A stretch of 45,526 nt of DNA, taken from contig JADHNP010000012.1 in NCBI GenBank assembly GCA_016779445.1, positions 1 to 45,526 of the forward strand, read 5' to 3'. The stretch comes from Luminiphilus sp. Its GTDB lineage: Bacteria > Pseudomonadota > Gammaproteobacteria > Pseudomonadales > Halieaceae. Both the position numbers and the translations under genes were made by a program. The notes under the pieces are model-generated. The model did not search any database and was not told the DNA's origin. It was given only the letters and a program-made list of their open reading frames with translations. Of this stretch, positions 2,579-10,301 are shown piece by piece. Positions within the stretch are counted from its first letter, which is position 1. The number at the start of each line of letters is the position of its first letter.

Positions 2579-3589
2579 ATGGAAACGGATATTTTTGGGC
2601 AGGAAGCCAAGATACTGGCGGCTGCGAAGCAGATGATGGATGAGGGAGCGGCTTCTTCTGAGGACTACGCGGCCTTGACAACCCAGTACGGTAAACTCCT
2701 GCGCACTACCAAAAGAATTATCAAGCTAAGCGATAAAAATGAGCAGAGGCTCAATGAGTTAAAGCAGGAAGCGCAGGATACTAATACCCAGCTCGAGGGC
2801 ATGTCGTCACAATTATCTAAGTTTCTATCGCCGCAGTTGTATAACTCTATTTTTTCAGGCTCTAGGGCGGGCACTCGGGTTACCAGACGTAAGAAGCTCA
2901 CGGTATTCTTTTCCGACCTGTGCGGGTTTACCAACTTTGTAGAAAGCATGGAGTCAGAGGACGTAACGAATCTCCTGAACCTGTACCTTGAATCCATGAC
3001 AACCATCGCGCTCGACTATGGTGCGACGATCGATAAGTACATTGGCGACGGCATCATGCTCTTTTTTGGGGATCCTGAAACCAAAGGGCTCAAAGAAGAT
3101 GCCACGAGTTGTGTCAAGATGGGCCTCGATATGCTTAAAGAGCTCGATAATCTATCGGATCAGTGGGTGAACTATGGGATGCGAGAGCCCTTACAGATGC
3201 GCATCGGCATTGATACCGGCTTTGCAACTGTGGGGAATTTTGGCAGTGAATCGAGGTTGGACTACACCGCAATCGGTTCGGCAGTGAATCGAGCCTCGAG
3301 ACTGGAAACGGCAGCCGATCATGGCTCTATTTTTATATCCGAAGATACTTATAACCTGGTGAGGGAATCGATAGATGCTATTGAATTAGAGCCCATTCAC
3401 CTCAAAGGTATTGGCGAGTTCAAAGCGCGAAAGGTATTGGGAACAATAGATTCACAGACTATTTCGGTGAATTTTGGCAAGCGAAACCTTTCGTTAGTGC
3501 TCGATCGTATGTCGCAAGATGATTTAACGTTAACGAAATCCAGCCTTGTTCAGGCCCTGAGGGAGTTGGAGGAGTTTCAGGGGGAATAG
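2579..3589 (+). CDS. class III adenylate/guanylate cyclase with N-terminal coiled coil (SiaD-position effector)
   Basis: The 336-residue protein has a Glu/Gln/Lys-rich, probably coiled-coil N-terminus (about 1-90) and a class III nucleotide cyclase domain (about 105-290). Visible catalytic features are metal Asp113 in FFSDLCGFT and Asp157 in KYIGDGIMLFFG, K153 as the likely purine-specifying lysine, T230 in LDYTAIGSAVNRASRLE, and N237 and R241 as the transition-state pair. Lys/Thr pairing is typical of class IIIb adenylate cyclases, so cAMP is the likely product. No membrane segment is seen. The start is supported by GAGGGGAC upstream. The gene converges on a siaA/siaC/siaB-like operon. The N-terminal LLRTTKRIIKLSDKNEQRLN segment resembles, from memory, the SiaC-binding region of SiaD-type cyclases. 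I infer that this cyclase is the module's output enzyme. Confidence 0.9.
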   Translation: METDIFGQEAKILAAAKQMMDEGAASSEDYAALTTQYGKLLRTTKRIIKLSDKNEQRLNELKQEAQDTNTQLEGMSSQLSKFLSPQLYNSIFSGSRAGTRVTRRKKLTVFFSDLCGFTNFVESMESEDVTNLLNLYLESMTTIALDYGATIDKYIGDGIMLFFGDPETKGLKEDATSCVKMGLDMLKELDNLSDQWVNYGMREPLQMRIGIDTGFATVGNFGSESRLDYTAIGSAVNRASRLETAADHGSIFISEDTYNLVRESIDAIELEPIHLKGIGEFKARKVLGTIDSQTISVNFGKRNLSLVLDRMSQDDLTLTKSSLVQALRELEEFQGE

Positions 3590-3592
3590 CCC

Positions 3593-3630
3593 TCTATCGA
3601 GTAGCTTTTATTTTACCCAGCCTCGATAGA
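3593..3630. terminator. inverted repeat between convergent genes, possible bidirectional terminator
   Basis: TCTATCGAG (3593-3601) and CTCGATAGA (3622-3630) form a perfect 9-bp stem around a 20-base loop. It starts 4 bases after the cyclase stop and overlaps the end of the siaB-like gene. The convergent position suits a shared terminator, but the loop is long and there is no clean U tract. Confidence 0.35.
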
Positions 3631-4153
3631 CGAAAAGCGCACCGTCGTCGGATTCGACAAAGTCAAACTCGAACTTTTTGACTCTGCGGGCCATCTCGAT
3701 AAAACCCAATCCTGCGCCGCGAGAATCCTCTGGCGGGCCTTCTCTGAGTCTTTTTTTGTAGAGATCGCGAAGCTCCTTTTGATCCTTGACGCTAAGATCT
3801 ACGAGAGTCGCTTCTAGAATATCCTTTTTTGATGGGTCGACTACATTGACCGCTTCGATCAGAAAGCCATCTTCTGCAATGCTGATGGCAATAGTGCCTA
3901 TGCTGTCTCCCGTTGCCTTGGTCTTGTGGTGAGAGTACCGAATAATATTTTGTGCTTGCTCTATAAATACGCCGAACACGCGTTTAGCCACGATTTCTTC
4001 GGTCTCCTTGTCAGACAGCTGGTGTCGGACGGGGTTGGAAATAGTTGTCAGGAGATCCTCGGTCAGTGGCCCGGAATAGCAAAATAGGGTCTTCCTCTCT
4101 TGCATAAAACTATGCAATTCAACCGTGTCTTGGCTCGCAATATTGTCTGTCAT
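3608..4153 (-). CDS. siaB: SiaB-like protein kinase (GHKL-type ATPase fold)
   Basis: The 181-residue soluble protein matches the SiaB family. It has an N-box-like helix FIEQAQNIIRYSHH (E65, N69), a G1-like FLIEAVNVVD and a G2-like GAGLGFIEMARR (146-156), the ATP-binding elements of anti-sigma-factor-type GHKL kinases. In Pseudomonas aeruginosa SiaB phosphorylates SiaC, which stops SiaC activating its cyclase partner. Here the gene follows the siaC-like gene by 43 bases on the same strand and is last in the operon. GAGGAAAAGGAAA precedes the ATG. The family assignment rests on size, motifs and gene order. Confidence 0.82.
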   Translation of the reverse strand: MTDNIASQDTVELHSFMQERKTLFCYSGPLTEDLLTTISNPVRHQLSDKETEEIVAKRVFGVFIEQAQNIIRYSHHKTKATGDSIGTIAISIAEDGFLIEAVNVVDPSKKDILEATLVDLSVKDQKELRDLYKKRLREGPPEDSRGAGLGFIEMARRVKKFEFDFVESDDGALFVYRGWVK

Positions 4154-4196
4154 TTTCCTTTTCCTCGAATAATACGTCGCTATTCAGGAATTACTT

Positions 4197-4568
4197 TTAC
4201 GCCTGCTCGACCATCACCATGTTGTACGAGCACGCAGAGACATCCTCTTCAAAATCCTCTCCGGCCTCTTGCATCGTGTCATCCTCGGCACGGTATCGCC
4301 AGTTGACAGTGATGCTTTTCCCGCCTTCGGCGCTTTCTTCCAAAAACTCAAAGAAATCAAACAAAAATTTAGCTGAGGAGCTGTTGAAATAGTAGAGCTC
4401 TATATCGACTACAAACCCGCCTTCATCGTTGCCGAGACATTCCTCAAGCGCCTTCAGAATGGGATCAGACCACTCAGAAATATTCTCTGGGTAACATTCA
4501 CCACGAATGAGGCATGATGTAGGCGTCAGTTCAACCTGAGGTGTTCGCTGACCGGCTTCAAAAATCAT
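4197..4568 (-). CDS. siaC: SiaC-like switch protein (DUF1987)
   Basis: The 123-residue protein has the SiaC/DUF1987 layout: an N-terminal strand pair, GECYPENISEWSDPI, then YYFNSSSAKFLFDFFEFLEE with the phosphorylation site region, and a C-terminal strand ending in a DTMQEAGEDFEEDV tail. In P. aeruginosa the unphosphorylated protein binds and activates the diguanylate cyclase SiaD, and SiaB and SiaA set its phosphorylation. The start overlaps the end of the siaA-like gene by 4 bases, which suggests translational coupling, and GGAGA lies 7 bases upstream. The expected phospho-site carries serines (S63-S65) where I recall threonine in Pseudomonas. The probable partner here is the adenylate-cyclase-like protein next door. 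Confidence 0.82.
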   Translation of the reverse strand: MIFEAGQRTPQVELTPTSCLIRGECYPENISEWSDPILKALEECLGNDEGGFVVDIELYYFNSSSAKFLFDFFEFLEESAEGGKSITVNWRYRAEDDTMQEAGEDFEEDVSACSYNMVMVEQA

Positions 4569-6820
4569 GAGTCTTCTCCGACTACTGATACTGTACTTAA
4601 TTCGCTGTCGTCCTCAATCAGCGAGAAAGCAAGCAAGGTTAAATCATCTCGGAATGGCGCATCACCCCGATATAAATTCACACTACGCATTATATTTTTA
4701 ACGATCGTGGACGGCGTTTTTTCTAATGATTCTCTCAAGATCTTGATGACCCGTCGTCGACCGAAGGCAATAGGCTTTTCTTCAGGGCTCATAACATCGG
4801 TAATGCCATCTGTGAGCATGACAAAAGCACCTACTGGCGAGCTTATTTCATGGGTAGTGAAGCTGAAGTCAGCGGCCATTCTAGTGGAGCCCACAGATTT
4901 TCGATCTCCGCTTACCTCTGTTGCGCCTGTGCCATTGACATTAAAAATCGACGATTTTGCGCCCGCAAATTCGAGCTTTTGTTCTTTTCGGTAGTATATG
5001 CAGACGCCGCCGTCAAAGCCCTCTTCGCTGGTATTCTTTTGATCTGAGCGCGAGAGGGTTTCTTTCAATAATTCATTGACTGCGGTGAGATAGTTGCCGG
5101 CACTTTGGTAGTTTTTGGCATCGATCGCCTTGTCCAAGTGACTTCGAGCGATGATAGACAGGAAGGCGCCGGGCACACCGTGCCCTGTGCAATCCACTAC
5201 CGCGATATAGACTCGATCGGGGTAGTCTTTGATGAAGTAAATGTCTCCGCCAACCAGATCTCGAGGCTGCCATTCGACATTGATGTCGAAGTCGCCCGGC
5301 ATGGTCTTGGGCAGCAGCGCGTTTTGTAGCTTAGCTGCGTAACGAATAGAGCTGTTGATCTCATCTTTGGCAGCAACCAGTTCATGAGTGCGGGCATCGA
5401 TCAACGTCCCGACTTCGTCAGACATTCTGGAGAACGCTTTGGACATCACTTCTATCGAGGCGCGCTCCTTTTCCTCATCGCTACCTGATGAGACAGTGTC
5501 CCGCATGGCACTGATTTCCTCTTTGAGCATATCTCTGGCTTGACCTTCAAGCTGCTCGGCGAGGGAGGCCATTTTTTCAAACATGATTTGATCACGCTCG
5601 TCTCGTCTTTTCGCCCGATCCCGCCTTTGTACTTCTGCCTCTTGACGGTGATGTCGGTACTCATCAATGGTGCTCTGGAGTCGACTGACCTCGTCATTTT
5701 TTGAAGAAAGCAGCCCTGCATTGGTGGGCATCTCGACAGACAGATCGCCCTCACCCATTTTTTCTAGGAGATGAATGGCGTCCAAAATTCGGTTGAATGA
5801 GGAGGTGGTCATGAGAAACACTAACCCAAGAATGACCAGAGATACAGCCGCAAAAATCATGACGGCGGTTGTCTCTGCTTCTTTCAGTGTGGCGAGCAAT
5901 TCACCCTGATCATCAAAGATCAGAATTCGTAGGTCACTGGCCCTGATTTCCTTACTGAAAGGGATGGAAGAAACGCGAGTGCCTTCTTTCTCGGCGATAA
6001 AGCTGTAAGAGTAAGTTCCCGTTTCGGTAGCGTGGGACAGCCCGGCTCGAATCAATGTGTTGAGTTCGGGACTGCGCTCCTCTCCATAATAATCGTGAAC
6101 AGTGAGCGCTTTCTCGCCGATAGCGATAGCGGTTTCGATTTCAAAGTTTTCAGAAAACTGCTCCAGGCTATCGATAACGTTTCGGCCCACGACAACCATA
6201 GCGATTAAATCGTCGCCCGTGCTCATCAATGGAAATGCCAATGTGTCATTGATTGAGACCGGTTGTTCTCCAGATAGATCGCTGATCTGAGTAACGCGCC
6301 TCACAGAGCCGTTTTCGAGTGAACTGGCGAATGACCCGAATTTCAGAAAATAGTCGGGCTGTGCCGATTCAGCACAGGGATCTACACCAACAAGATACAG
6401 ACTGGATTCGCAGTAAAGCTGCAAGCCTCTTTTGTCATAGGCAATGGCGAATGTGATCTGTTCTTCCATGATGGCGTCAGAAAAAACCTGTTCAAACAAC
6501 CCTTCAGCGGTCTCAGCGTCTTTTTCTAGAATTGCCGTAAAGAGCGGGTTTTCACCATCTGATTCTTCGAATGGGTCTAATTCCGGGTCCCAGAAGTTAG
6601 CATTCCTTTCAGAGCCGTCCATGGGGTCGTATGCCAGTAAATTGCTGACAAACTGTGTGTCCATATTGCTAAACCAAGCAGAGGAATGCGCGGTAAGGCT
6701 CTCATCTGAGCTGTACTGTCCATGCGCACTATTCGTCTGAAGCGAGGAGTAGAGATTTGCGGCGAAAAGAATGCCAATACCTAACAAGATGATTAGCAGC
6801 ATTTTGCTTTTTATCGTCAT
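4565..6820 (-). CDS. siaA: SiaA-like membrane sensor PP2C/SpoIIE phosphatase
   Basis: The 751-residue sensor has TM1 (about 7-25), a large periplasmic region (about 26-315, probably CACHE-like), TM2 (about 318-338), a HAMP region (about 340-395), a charged coiled coil to about 490 and a C-terminal SpoIIE/PP2C phosphatase domain (about 505-740). Metal-binding signatures are DLVGGDIYF (D526), VVDCTGHGVPGAF (D543), MLTDGITD and FRDDLTLLAF. By analogy with P. aeruginosa it would dephosphorylate the SiaC-like protein in response to an extracytoplasmic signal. The periplasmic part has two cysteines (about C137 and C149) that could form a disulfide. It follows a TonB-domain gene by 13 bases and overlaps the siaC-like gene. 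The ligand is unknown. Confidence 0.9.
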   Translation of the reverse strand: MTIKSKMLLIILLGIGILFAANLYSSLQTNSAHGQYSSDESLTAHSSAWFSNMDTQFVSNLLAYDPMDGSERNANFWDPELDPFEESDGENPLFTAILEKDAETAEGLFEQVFSDAIMEEQITFAIAYDKRGLQLYCESSLYLVGVDPCAESAQPDYFLKFGSFASSLENGSVRRVTQISDLSGEQPVSINDTLAFPLMSTGDDLIAMVVVGRNVIDSLEQFSENFEIETAIAIGEKALTVHDYYGEERSPELNTLIRAGLSHATETGTYSYSFIAEKEGTRVSSIPFSKEIRASDLRILIFDDQGELLATLKEAETTAVMIFAAVSLVILGLVFLMTTSSFNRILDAIHLLEKMGEGDLSVEMPTNAGLLSSKNDEVSRLQSTIDEYRHHRQEAEVQRRDRAKRRDERDQIMFEKMASLAEQLEGQARDMLKEEISAMRDTVSSGSDEEKERASIEVMSKAFSRMSDEVGTLIDARTHELVAAKDEINSSIRYAAKLQNALLPKTMPGDFDINVEWQPRDLVGGDIYFIKDYPDRVYIAVVDCTGHGVPGAFLSIIARSHLDKAIDAKNYQSAGNYLTAVNELLKETLSRSDQKNTSEEGFDGGVCIYYRKEQKLEFAGAKSSIFNVNGTGATEVSGDRKSVGSTRMAADFSFTTHEISSPVGAFVMLTDGITDVMSPEEKPIAFGRRRVIKILRESLEKTPSTIVKNIMRSVNLYRGDAPFRDDLTLLAFSLIEDDSELSTVSVVGEDS

Positions 6821-6833
6821 GACAGGTGCTCGC

Positions 6834-7226
6834 CTACTTTTGAAGCTGGAACTGAACGCGGAACTTGATATCGCTTGTCAAAATTCGATTTCCATCCTCT
6901 TCGGGCACGTCAAAGTCCATACCTTTAACAAATTTCAAAGCTGATTTATCAAACATTAGCCTGGGTTGGCTCTCAATTACTCTCAAATCAATGAGTTCAC
7001 CTTCAGCGGACAAGTCGAAGCCAACAGTCACGAACCCCTCGACGCCCAAACGTTCTGCCCGCCGAGGATATTTCAGACTAGGGGTTTTTTTGATTTCAAC
7101 GACAACTTCGTTGCCGGCCGGAGATGTGCCCTTGACGCTTGCTGCAAATGAGGGAATGGCACTGAACAAGCATATTGCCAGGAGTAGTCGTGTGTTCAGC
7201 GCCAGTAGTTTTGTTTTGTTGTACAT
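6834..7226 (-). CDS. small exported TonB C-terminal-domain protein
   Basis: From the ATG at 7226 the protein has 130 residues: a signal peptide or anchor (RLLLAICLFSAIPSFAA) followed almost at once by a TonB C-terminal fold (SLKYPRRAERLGVEGFVTVG, then AEGELIDLRVIESQPR). The typical Pro-rich spacer of true TonB is missing, so it is unlikely to span the periplasm. It may instead be a periplasmic or outer-membrane adaptor. A longer reading from 7319 exists, but the signal peptide begins properly only at 7226, and AAGG precedes it. It is the first gene of the run tonB-like, siaA, siaC, siaB and stands 13 bases before siaA, so it may help the sensor perceive its signal. Confidence 0.75.
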   Translation of the reverse strand: MYNKTKLLALNTRLLLAICLFSAIPSFAASVKGTSPAGNEVVVEIKKTPSLKYPRRAERLGVEGFVTVGFDLSAEGELIDLRVIESQPRLMFDKSALKFVKGMDFDVPEEDGNRILTSDIKFRVQFQLQK

Positions 7227-7619: not shown

Positions 7620-7904
7620 ATGATCCGTTATCGAATGAAGCCTTATGCGCCCATCGTGCTGTTTGCCGCGATGCTGTTCGCTTTTGGCAATCTCGCCCAT
7701 TCGTTAGAGCATGATTATGGCCTGGGAGCCAGCCAAACCCATGCCGAGTGCAATCATTGCTCGGGTGAGAATAGTGCTGCTGTCAGTCCCCTAACTTTAA
7801 TGTCATTCACCTCGCTGAGCGAGGTGCACTATGAGCCGATTTCCTCTGGCTTTATCGCAACGCCCACTAATAGTTTTCAGGTCCGCGCCCCGCCTCTACG
7901 CTGA
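7620..7904 (+). CDS. small exported His/Cys-containing protein
   Basis: The 94-residue protein has a signal-peptide-like N-terminus (VLFAAMLFAFGNLAHS) and a short mature part with HSLEHDYG, THAECNHCSGEN and further polar sequence. His and a CxxC pair suggest metal binding, loosely like DUF2946-type proteins found beside metal transporters; I cannot confirm that family. No strong ribosome site is seen before either 7620 or the in-frame ATG at 7635. It ends 42 bases before the receptor gene on the same strand, so co-transcription is likely. An inferred role is periplasmic zinc or copper handling. Confidence 0.55.
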   Translation: MIRYRMKPYAPIVLFAAMLFAFGNLAHSLEHDYGLGASQTHAECNHCSGENSAAVSPLTLMSFTSLSEVHYEPISSGFIATPTNSFQVRAPPLR

Positions 7905-7946
7905 ACTTACCCCCCAAAGTTCTTTTACCTGTTTTAGGAGGCGATC

Positions 7947-10301
7947 ATGCCGCGCAGCGCATTATGCGCTCTCGCGGCCGTAGCGGTGATTCCGCTATCG
8001 GCTGTTGGGAGCGAAGAAACTTTATTGGAAGAGATTGTTGTCACCGCATCTTTTGTGGGCATCAAGGAATCTTCAGCAACAAGACCTATCCACGTCCTTA
8101 ATGGCGAAGAGCTGACTGCTCAGGGTACCCAGTCACTAGGTGAGCATGTAGATGCCTTGCTGGGTGTTTCTTCTGCTGATTTTGGTGCTGCAGTAGGACA
8201 GCCTATTATTCGTGGTATGAGTGGTAATCGGGTCAAAGTGCTTAATAACGGCACAGTGATTCGTGACGTCTCTGCATTGGGCCCTGATCATGCAGTCGAT
8301 GTCAGCCTGAGTGATGTAAAACAGATTGAGATCGTGCGCGGCCCATCGGCCCTGATGTATTCCAATGGTTCAATTGGCGGCATCGTCAATGTGGTTGATA
8401 ACAGTATTCCTGCCACTGACCTCGAGGGCTTCAGTGGTTCATTGGGTGCAGAAGCACAGTCTGTTAACGACGGTGAGGCGGTTGATTTATCTTTGCGCGG
8501 CAACTTGGGTGGCTTGAATCTTACCTACAGTTATCAGGATGCCGAGTTGGAGGATTACGAAATCCCCACCGGCGCGGTATTGGACGTCCACGATGATCAT
8601 GATGGCGAGGAGGGGCACGAAGGCGAGCATCACAGTGATGAGCACGAGGAAGAGCATGGGGAAATGGACACTCTTGCCAACTCTGATGTCTCGACAACAT
8701 CTCATCGTGTGGGCCTGTCTAAAACCGGTGATTGGGGTTACATCGGCCTATCCTACAGCGACCTCAGTAGCACTTACGGGATTCCTTTCCATTCTGAAGC
8801 CGCTCATGATAATCATGGACAAGAAGATGGTCACGATGCGGACCATGAAGATGATCACGAAGAAGGTCACGAAGACGCGGATGGGGAGCATCATTCTGAG
8901 TCTGGCGATGAGCGTATCTTCTCCAAAACTGATTCAGAAGTTATTGCACTGAGTGGTTCTTTTAAAACTTCCATCCCCTTTTTGAACGCGATCGACTTCG
9001 ATATAAAGAACACAGATTATGAGCTGTCCGAGCAGCATGCTGAAGATGAGCACGGTGAAGAAGATACACATGAGGGACATGATCATGCTGAGGGCCCGAC
9101 GGTTTTCAGTAATGAGGCCACGGAGATTTCTCTGGCACTAGATCTGAGCGCTGGTGAGAGAATTCGACGCGTCGTGCTGAACTACGCTGAAGAGGAAATA
9201 TCGATCATTGGTGAAGAAGCCTTCATGGCGCCGGTTGATTCCACTGAAACCACGCTAGGGTTCTTCAGTTCTGATGACCTGGGCTTCGCTTCATTGGATC
9301 TGGGTTTTCGCTTTGATCATGTAGAGCGCGACGGCTTCATCGCTGATATGCACCACGAAGATGAACATGATGAACACCACGAAGATGAGCATGACGAACA
9401 TCACGAAGGTCAGCATGATGAAGATCATGAGGATGAAATGGTGTACGAGCCTGCCGCATTCAGCGACGAGGTGTTCAGTGCTGCGGCAACGCTCAGGCGA
9501 GACCTAAATCAGCACGCTTCCGTCTCTCTGGGTCTCGCGAGTGTCAGCAAAACGCCCTCAGCCGTTGAGCTATTCATGAACGGTGAGCATCTGGCCTCCA
9601 GTCGTTATGAGGTGGGTGATGTCACGCTGGATACGGAGCGTTCCGATAATATCGATCTGGCCTTCAATTTTGATTCGCATGGATGGTTTGGTTCCGCCTC
9701 CATCTATTACAACCGAGTCGATAACTATATTTATCTGCGCGATGAGCTTGAGGATGAGCATGCGGCGCATATGGAGGAAGATCATGAAGATGAGCATCAT
9801 GACGAAGACCATGATGACGGGCATTTTGACCACGGTGGATTGATTCTCTCGGAGTACAGCCAGCAGGACGCTGAATTTACGGGATACGAGATCCAAATTG
9901 GGACGCGATTTGAGCTGCCGCGAGGACAACTCGAGTTAACACTTGGTCGCGATGAGGTCAATGCGGAGTTCACCCGAGGTGGGGATGTGCCTAGGATCGT
10001 GCCAGCGAGAAACCTATTTTCAGCACGCTATACGTTGGATGACTTTTCAGCGAAGCTCCTGGTGAAAGATGTGGAGCGTCAGAACAACGTCAGCCTTGGT
10101 GAGTCGAGCACAGAGGGCTTTACTCTGGTCAATGCTGACGCATCATGGTCATACAACATTAATGACTCGACGCGCCTAGTCTTGACCGCCTTTGCTCGTA
10201 ATCTCACTGATGAGCGCGCGCGCAACCATACATCCTTTGTTAAGGACCAGGTGCCGCTACCGGGGAGAAACCTCGGTGTTCGCATTCGTCTGAACTTCTG
10301 A
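7947..10301 (+). CDS. znuD: ZnuD-like TonB-dependent receptor with His-rich loops
   Basis: The 784-residue outer-membrane receptor has a signal peptide (LCALAAVAVIPLSAVG), a TonB box-like LLEEIVVTAS, a plug domain (GQPIIRGMSGNRVKVL, EIVRGPSALMYSNGSIGG) and a beta barrel ending NLGVRIRLNF with terminal Phe. Five segments rich in His, Asp and Glu interrupt the plug-to-barrel region and loops, far beyond the usual receptor. His-rich loops are the mark of zinc receptors such as neisserial ZnuD, so zinc (or another soft divalent metal) uptake is the best call. TTTAGGAGGCGATC precedes the ATG. The family is firm; the metal is inferred. A TonB-domain protein is encoded divergently nearby but seems tied to the Sia operon. 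Confidence 0.88.
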   Translation: MPRSALCALAAVAVIPLSAVGSEETLLEEIVVTASFVGIKESSATRPIHVLNGEELTAQGTQSLGEHVDALLGVSSADFGAAVGQPIIRGMSGNRVKVLNNGTVIRDVSALGPDHAVDVSLSDVKQIEIVRGPSALMYSNGSIGGIVNVVDNSIPATDLEGFSGSLGAEAQSVNDGEAVDLSLRGNLGGLNLTYSYQDAELEDYEIPTGAVLDVHDDHDGEEGHEGEHHSDEHEEEHGEMDTLANSDVSTTSHRVGLSKTGDWGYIGLSYSDLSSTYGIPFHSEAAHDNHGQEDGHDADHEDDHEEGHEDADGEHHSESGDERIFSKTDSEVIALSGSFKTSIPFLNAIDFDIKNTDYELSEQHAEDEHGEEDTHEGHDHAEGPTVFSNEATEISLALDLSAGERIRRVVLNYAEEEISIIGEEAFMAPVDSTETTLGFFSSDDLGFASLDLGFRFDHVERDGFIADMHHEDEHDEHHEDEHDEHHEGQHDEDHEDEMVYEPAAFSDEVFSAAATLRRDLNQHASVSLGLASVSKTPSAVELFMNGEHLASSRYEVGDVTLDTERSDNIDLAFNFDSHGWFGSASIYYNRVDNYIYLRDELEDEHAAHMEEDHEDEHHDEDHDDGHFDHGGLILSEYSQQDAEFTGYEIQIGTRFELPRGQLELTLGRDEVNAEFTRGGDVPRIVPARNLFSARYTLDDFSAKLLVKDVERQNNVSLGESSTEGFTLVNADASWSYNINDSTRLVLTAFARNLTDERARNHTSFVKDQVPLPGRNLGVRIRLNF
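8588..9838 (+). repeat. five degenerate His/Asp/Glu-coding repeat tracts
   Basis: Within the receptor gene, tracts at about 8588-8668, 8803-8900, 9031-9093, 9351-9438 and 9750-9838 are built of GAY/GAR/CAY codons in short degenerate repeats such as CACGAAGATGAGCATGAC. Tracts of this kind can expand and shrink by slippage, so length may vary between strains. They encode the putative metal-collecting extracellular loops. Confidence 0.7.

Follow-up and report, generated by a model that had tools for sequence, protein, structure and literature searches.

Gene Module of the Locus

The stretch of DNA considered here (hereafter the window) spans 45,526 nt of Luminiphilus sp. (Halieaceae), positions 1-45,526 of the forward strand of contig JADHNP010000012.1 in assembly GCA_016779445.1, which is 87% complete. 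It carries a module of five genes encoding a TonB_C-domain protein, a SiaA-like PP2C phosphatase, the phosphoprotein SiaC, a SiaB-like kinase and a class III nucleotidyl cyclase (Table 1). This gene set and its family assignments, proposed in an initial annotation made from the sequence, were confirmed by the open reading frames (ORFs) and by a Pfam scan of the window ORFs, in which all five matches exceed the curated cut-offs. The siaA-like ORF overlaps the start of siaC by 4 bp, and the cyclase gene converges on siaB with the 18 bp between stops that had been noted earlier (3590-3607). The module most likely represents a SiaABC partner switch that has a class IIIb adenylate cyclase as its output, in place of the GGDEF enzyme SiaD.

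Table 1. Features of the module in the window and docking segments at other SiaC loci.
Feature	Position	Strand	Size and evidence
Class IIIb nucleotidyl cyclase, predicted output enzyme (cyclic AMP, cAMP)	2579-3589	+	336 aa; PF00211 Guanylate_cyc 91.7 bits; CyaB 3r5g E 1.1e-57; Foldseek 3r5g_B TMt 0.91
Putative N-terminal SiaC-docking segment of the cyclase, residues 1-67	2579-2779	+	A2 profile 80.7 bits, E 2.1e-22; AlphaFold2 (AF2) model
Putative core docking motif of the cyclase, residues 36-64, equivalent to the SiaD stalk motif near S82-Q86	2684-2770	+	Position-specific scoring matrix (PSSM) scores
SiaB-like serine kinase (DUF6272), predicted to phosphorylate SiaC	3608-4153	-	181 aa; PF19788 109.6 bits
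SiaC (STAS-like DUF1987 phosphoprotein), predicted cyclase partner	4197-4568	-	123 aa; PF09345 105.7 bits; AF2 model
S63 codon of SiaC, equivalent of P. aeruginosa SiaC phosphosite T68	4380-4382	-	Alignment to 6kko and to alignment A1
SiaA-like membrane sensor phosphatase	4565-6820	-	751 aa; SpoIIE residues 534-732, 63.8 bits; two hydrophobic segments
TonB_C-domain protein, N-terminal hydrophobic segment, possible SiaA partner	6834-7226	-	130 aa; PF03544 55.5 bits
Docking segment at the N-terminus of GAF/HD proteins or histidine kinases adjoining SiaC	L120, L162, L172, L176, L178, L187, L194, L210		

Class III cyclases of subclass b are recognized by two metal-binding Asp residues, a Lys/Thr substrate pair and a transition-state Asn/Arg, all of which are found in the window cyclase. 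The residues D113, K153, D157, T230, N237 and R241, which the initial annotation had described as intact, are invariant among 23 SiaC-linked cyclases and are the same in P. aeruginosa CyaB. The product is probably cAMP rather than cGMP, since the substrate pair K153/T230 is common to CyaB, an adenylyl cyclase. An AlphaFold model of the protein shows a helix (residues 7-21), a continuous long stalk helix (27-82) and then the catalytic domain, which Foldseek matches to CyaB (3r5g) with TMt 0.91-0.92 and 50% identity. The same search returned cyclase domains, the SiaD stalk being absent from the best 50 of 708 matches. The window cyclase differs from CyaB, whose membrane domain is MASE2, in its putative SiaC-docking stalk and in having no hydrophobic segment above the threshold used.

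The window SiaC aligns with P. aeruginosa SiaC (6kko) over residues 19-111 with E 3.3e-14, and its PF09345 score compares with a curated cut-off of 24.5. Its AF2 model (pLDDT 91.9) resembles the SiaC chains of 7e6g, where SiaC is in complex with SiaD, with TMq 0.85-0.91 (0.91 for chain F). T68 is the phosphosite of P. aeruginosa SiaC, according to excerpts of PMC8457831 and PMC7647112. The window protein has a phosphorylatable residue at this position within an N-S/T-S pattern (N62-S63-S64), and the alignment favors S63 as the putative phosphosite, as had been suggested before. By analogy, SiaC is predicted to be phosphorylated by SiaB and dephosphorylated by SiaA. The window SiaB is a BLAST homologue of the genes found between siaA and siaC at the GGDEF-type loci L049-L051.

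SiaA had been described as TM-periplasmic-TM-HAMP-SpoIIE. Pfam supports the SpoIIE domain, and hydrophobic segments near residues 1-28 and 314-346 fit the TM-periplasmic-TM arrangement, as judged by hydropathy only. The HAMP domain was not confirmed: at E<=1 Pfam gives only SpoIIE and a chance-level match to EURL. A SpoIIE/PP2C domain thus lies behind a membrane sensor, as in a SiaA-like PP2C sensor.

Putative SiaC-Binding Motif on the Cyclase

In the SiaC-SiaD structure, as described in excerpts of PMC8457831, T68 of SiaC reaches in between the stalks of SiaD, where it bonds with S82 and Q86. Further SiaD contacts with SiaC are R74, K77, V78, R80, I81, D83, R84, Y85, M88, R90 and D91, and a second SiaD motif (S50, G52, Q54) lies 32 residues before the first one. 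Residues K77, V78, R80, I81, S82, D83, R84 and Q86 of SiaD as given there correspond to R46, I47, K49, L50, S51, D52, K53 and E55 of the window cyclase, which has a single motif of this kind vs. the two described for SiaD. The motif is well conserved in the 15 cyclases of the window's family; the exception is that of genome G060, which has N in place of S51.

A 29-residue PSSM was trained solely on 49 GGDEF proteins (diguanylate cyclases) encoded beside SiaC and was used to score 8,641 ORFs from 176 loci, duplicates included. Scores of at least 20 were obtained by 153 ORFs, while the best of the 8,488 others reached 14.3, with none in between. At 40.8, the window cyclase exceeds the maximum of 18.0 attained by 5,000 shuffled versions of its N-terminus. 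Under a strict PSSM built from 32 Pseudomonas-type SiaDs, the window cyclase reaches 21.0, compared to top scores of 12.8 among the 8,488 other ORFs and 19.0 among 5,000 shuffles. With both matrices, a SiaC-binding motif like that of the SiaABCD module is thus found on the N-terminal stalk of the output enzyme, in a single copy.

K, R, E and L abound in the predicted helix that holds the motif. It might accordingly be taken for a generic charged coiled coil common to signaling enzymes, one that says nothing of SiaC. This explanation appears extremely unlikely. The shuffles fall short of the window cyclase, and among 45 cyclase-domain entries scored, the 9 beside SiaC reach at least 24.0 vs. 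at most 8.4 for the 36 others. Nine genomes yield 122 class III cyclase matches; the docking segment occurs on 10, and all of these adjoin SiaC. At SiaC loci, 69 GGDEF ORFs were found, and the 17 that lack the motif are large neighbors, two of them within 1 kb.

The same tendency is seen in the phylum sample. A profile named A2, in which 25 docking segments representing the four enzyme classes described below are aligned, matches 54 of 398 phylum genomes; SiaC is present in 52 of these 54, compared to 67 of 398 overall (Fisher p 8e-49). After exclusion of the 18 genomes that supplied A2 rows, the corresponding numbers are 34 of 36 and 49 of 380 (p 2e-34). The two segment-bearing genomes without SiaC are G169, 88% complete and belonging to a genus of SiaC-bearing genomes, and G331, with a marginal match across stop codons. 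Fifteen SiaC-bearing genomes are missed by A2. Seven of these have Pseudomonas-type loci, whose motif-bearing GGDEF proteins are in the PSSM training set or identical to its members. The A2 score of the window segment in Table 1 comes from a profile in which the window sequence is itself a row.

Co-Occurrence of SiaC and the Cyclase

The window's family (f1) comprises 61 genomes (G000-G060). The named relatives belong to Halieaceae (Luminiphilus, OM60/NOR5) and SAR92/Porticoccaceae, along with one OM182 and one SAR116-labeled assembly; most were assembled from metagenomes or single cells, and their labels may in part be wrong. SiaC is present in 15 of the 61 genomes, with one match in each. 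These same 15 genomes, and 0 of the 46 others, contain full-length matches to the window cyclase (E < 1e-100, match start at residue 1-4); the 46 have at most more distant cyclases, matching from residue 68 onward. Fisher p for this co-occurrence is 1.4e-14, shared descent not being corrected for. In 14 of the 15 genomes siaC-siaB converge on the cyclase; in the 15th (G018) contig borders cut the genes off. The convergence is not due to chance, since it is kept in these 14 genomes down to ~50% cyclase identity.

The cyclase could still be a mere neighbor, with SiaABC regulating something else, such as an undetected SiaD. The gene is on the opposite strand, outside the sia operon, and the assembly is incomplete, which leaves some room for this explanation. 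We regard it as very improbable, given the 15/15 vs. 0/46 distribution of the full-length cyclase and the presence of the docking motif on the cyclase itself. The cyclase N-terminus occurs at one place only in the window's own genome, and no other docking segment was found there. Arrangements in other loci also speak against it: outside the group of the window's relatives the cyclase and siaC mostly run in one direction, the two genes being within ~210 bp of each other in 8 of 9 other phylum-sample loci, as for SiaD; in L223 the cyclase is placed before siaB. Taken together, both the generic coiled-coil and the bystander explanations are unlikely.

A GGDEF-type SiaD elsewhere in the genome with the same N-terminal segment was named in the initial annotation as a finding that would speak against the partner-switch reading. 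It was looked for and not found in the window's own genome, where no GGDEF match at all appears at E<=0.01 (assembly 87% complete). GGDEF matches are likewise absent from 9 of the 15 SiaC-bearing family genomes, the 96% complete G025 included. Genomes without GGDEF are much more frequent among SiaC-bearing members of the family than among those without SiaC (9/15 vs. 6/46; Fisher p 7e-4). The other six SiaC-bearing genomes have 13 GGDEF loci, at which the docking motif was found in no frame (best score 6.9). EAL matches over the cut-off occur in 2 of the 15 SiaC-bearing family genomes, and proteins binding cyclic nucleotide monophosphates (cNMP) in 15 of 15. Hence the GGDEF SiaD output that marks the SiaABCD module of cyclic di-GMP (c-di-GMP) signaling was not found here; the output neighbor is a PF00211 protein.

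Survey of SiaC Loci

The initial annotation had called for a survey of DUF1987 genes next to class III cyclases. Such a survey shows that several lineages have docking-type class III cyclases next to SiaC. After dropping 16 identical SiaC copies, the non-redundant set contains 160 loci: 159 with SiaC and the separate cyclase contig of G018, the SiaC contig of that genome being entered as having no docking protein. Of these, 52 have the segment on a GGDEF protein, 43 on a class III cyclase and 43 on some other protein; in 22 no such protein is present. Most of the 52 GGDEF proteins are the PSSM training set, and the named-contig loci were picked by similarity to the window SiaC, which biases the counts towards cyclases. 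The phylum sample on its own (80 of 83 SiaC matches) gives 10 cyclases, 23 GGDEF proteins, 27 others and 20 loci in which no docking protein was found; some, not all, of these 20 are near contig ends. Among the loci without docking protein in the L165-L237 range, L190, L201 and L236 show weaker motif variants (8.8-14.3) on proteins of ~470-740 residues.

Proximity to SiaC goes along with the motif. At non-redundant SiaC loci, all 40 class III cyclases at a distance of up to 2.5 kb carry it, as do two at 2.9 kb (L104, L108); three at 3.2-3.3 kb lack it. In a tree of 81 cyclase domains, several joins of which involve long branches, the docking label has to change four times (bootstrap range 4-6). 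Since well-supported branches force at least two of these changes, the docking segment, as identified by its sequence, is on at least two class III lineages. In one case (L225:4263-5957) the SiaC-adjacent docking cyclase has a C-terminal PilZ domain, possibly joining cAMP output to c-di-GMP sensing.

A Pfam scan of 8 of the 43 other docking proteins revealed four GAF-HD proteins (HD_5), probably of the HD-GYP type, and four proteins with histidine-kinase domains (last row of Table 1); the remaining 35 include proteins of other Azospirillum loci. The segment is thus seen on four classes of proteins: diguanylate cyclases, class III cyclases (at least two lineages), GAF-HD proteins of presumed HD-GYP type, and histidine kinases. 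It had been proposed at first that the second messenger is exchanged on a conserved signaling chassis. The sequence tests support that idea, and the frame turned out to be too narrow, since HD-domain proteins and histidine kinases beside SiaC have the segment as well.

The phosphosite of SiaC was also compared with the docking Q/E position of the partner. All 32 rows with T at the phosphosite have Q, and rows with S have E (48), Q (32), A (2) or D (2). The site pattern was missed in 27 of 159 loci. Because the T-type rows come from related lineages, the table was not used. No description of a pairing of SiaC with a class III cyclase was found in the open-licence literature searched.

Proposed Mechanism and Its Weighing

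In the proposed mechanism, SiaB would phosphorylate SiaC on S63. The membrane phosphatase SiaA, responding to an envelope signal, perhaps with the TonB_C protein, would remove the phosphate. Unphosphorylated SiaC would then dock on the long N-terminal stalk helix of the cyclase (residues 36-64) and order a parallel stalk dimer, so that the two catalytic domains meet and produce cAMP. We infer activation by unphosphorylated SiaC by analogy, as well as the envelope nature of the signal. Since the cyclase has one docking motif vs. the two of SiaD, a 2:2 rather than a 2:4 SiaC-cyclase complex is predicted.

The same wiring could work with the opposite sign: SiaC might dock and inhibit the cyclase, or phosphorylated SiaC might be the activating form. 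The sign of control is not readable from sequence. The cyclase has a single motif instead of two, and the acidic E55 where SiaD, as described in excerpts of PMC8457831, has Q86. For P. aeruginosa, on the other hand, the same excerpts describe activation of SiaD by unphosphorylated SiaC, which orders the stalks into a parallel dimer. We therefore consider an inverted sign rather unlikely. As for the cyclase itself, class III cyclases act as dimers, with the catalytic domains placed after the stalk. Ordering of the stalk is expected to activate the window enzyme too, since these cyclases share both features with SiaD.

Several points weigh against the partner switch with a cyclase output. The cyclase gene is convergent with siaB and not co-transcribed with it. 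A GGDEF protein of the window's own genome could have been missed because the assembly is 87% complete, and the A2 genome search scored at most 14 first-look candidates per genome, leaving the absences there incomplete. Some contacts are not kept: R74, Y85, Q86 and M88 of SiaD (in the excerpts of PMC8457831) are T43, N54, E55 and R57 in the window cyclase, I71, R103 and L107 of P. aeruginosa SiaC are A66, T98 and A102 in the window SiaC, and at the position of S82 G060 and several SAR92-type cyclases have N. Confidence in the modeled N-terminal helices of the window cyclase is modest (pLDDT about 58-75, pTM 0.60). A phmmer search of PDB chains with the cyclase N-terminus (103 residues) did not retrieve SiaD, and for this reason the link between cyclase and SiaD rests on profiles. 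The strict PSSM lifts only 25 of the 43 docking cyclases, the window cyclase among them, over the best unrelated ORF (12.8), and the more distant docking cyclases are therefore tied to SiaD through intermediate families. Docking of SiaC on the cyclase stalk is a prediction from sequence, though a strongly indicated one.

With these points taken into account, the N-terminal coiled coil of the cyclase, which the initial annotation had put forward as the SiaC docking site, still appears to be just that, judging by the presence and conservation of the SiaD contact motif and by the complete co-occurrence of cyclase and SiaC in the family.

Neighboring Genes and Candidate cAMP Receptors

The 130 aa of the TonB_C protein are counted from an ATG; the listed ORF starts at an upstream TTG. 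Besides the TonB_C domain, the protein seems to have just a hydrophobic segment or signal peptide at its N-terminus, and its gene tracks siaA, not siaC. At docking-cyclase loci, full-length siaA has a TonB_C gene immediately upstream in 23 of 30 cases, and this gene keeps to siaA where siaA is separate from siaC (L061, L106, L107).

Divergent from the TonB_C-siaA operon, the window (7620-10301) encodes a histidine-rich protein of 784 residues, which by eye resembles an outer-membrane receptor and is preceded by a small ORF. Homologues of both adjoin the module in L059 and L063. In L274 (from the genome of L053) and L276, a large upstream gene is weakly similar to the TonB-dependent receptor of the window (E ~5e-5), and a cNMP-binding protein of ~270 residues is encoded nearby. 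At L053:11567-13726, L054:11524-13683 and L276:8250-10349, a SiaA-type sensor (~30% identity over 480 residues) is fused to a class III cyclase behind a TonB_C gene. Such direct fusions in relatives suggest that there are two routes along which one type of envelope input reaches class III cyclases.

The cNMP-binding proteins of ~270 residues have no obvious DNA-binding domain by eye (L062:5474-6283, L064:4105-4905, L274:5976-6785, L275:6074-6886, L276:6608-7417). In L062 a homologue precedes the SiaC-linked cyclase by ~70 bp, and others are near the module in L064 and in L065, where it is split over two ORFs. This family is a candidate for the cAMP receptor of the pathway. A possible reader of cAMP is encoded in the window's own genome (L277, contig C35) next to another class III cyclase (an open frame of 484 aa): the protein looks CRP-like, its C-terminus resembling a helix-turn-helix by eye.

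Comparison with Known Systems

The closest known system is SiaABCD of P. aeruginosa (7e6g), which, according to excerpts of PMC8457831 and PMC7647112, shares with the window module a PP2C sensor, a SiaB kinase, a STAS-like SiaC with Ser/Thr at the same place, and an output enzyme whose N-terminal helical stalk bears a SiaC-binding motif. In comparison with that description, the window module has a class III cyclase instead of a GGDEF output domain, one motif and not two, S63 in place of T68, a convergent output gene outside the operon, and an attached TonB_C gene. P. aeruginosa CyaB is close in the catalytic domain.

STAS or switch-kinase proteins also control a second-messenger enzyme in HptB-HsbA-HsbD and BgrSTUWV-BgrR (excerpts of PMC8457831) and in Moorella MtT-MtG (excerpts of PMC7647112). 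These systems, which we set beside the window by description only, differ in that their outputs are diguanylate cyclases. For Campylobacterota, excerpts of PMC9239204 propose that c-di-GMP enzymes are under STAS/PP2C control; ECF-cAMP links are proposed there as a separate matter.

Implications

On the broader scale, we think it probable that SiaC is a general output adaptor acting on a portable N-terminal docking segment of ~65-75 residues found on at least four enzyme classes. A single chassis would have come to serve c-di-GMP synthesis and probably its breakdown, as well as cAMP and two-component signaling, and in this marine gammaproteobacterial lineage it would be kept, with cAMP as its output, in genomes that lack detectable GGDEF proteins. 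The docking motif is a sequence signature that predicts SiaC targets. If the proposed reading is correct, a phosphorylation switch changes its second messenger by swapping only the catalytic domain behind the docking helix. It would also give SiaC-family proteins a role in genomes with no detectable c-di-GMP synthase, and would provide marine bacteria with a route for envelope signals to cAMP.

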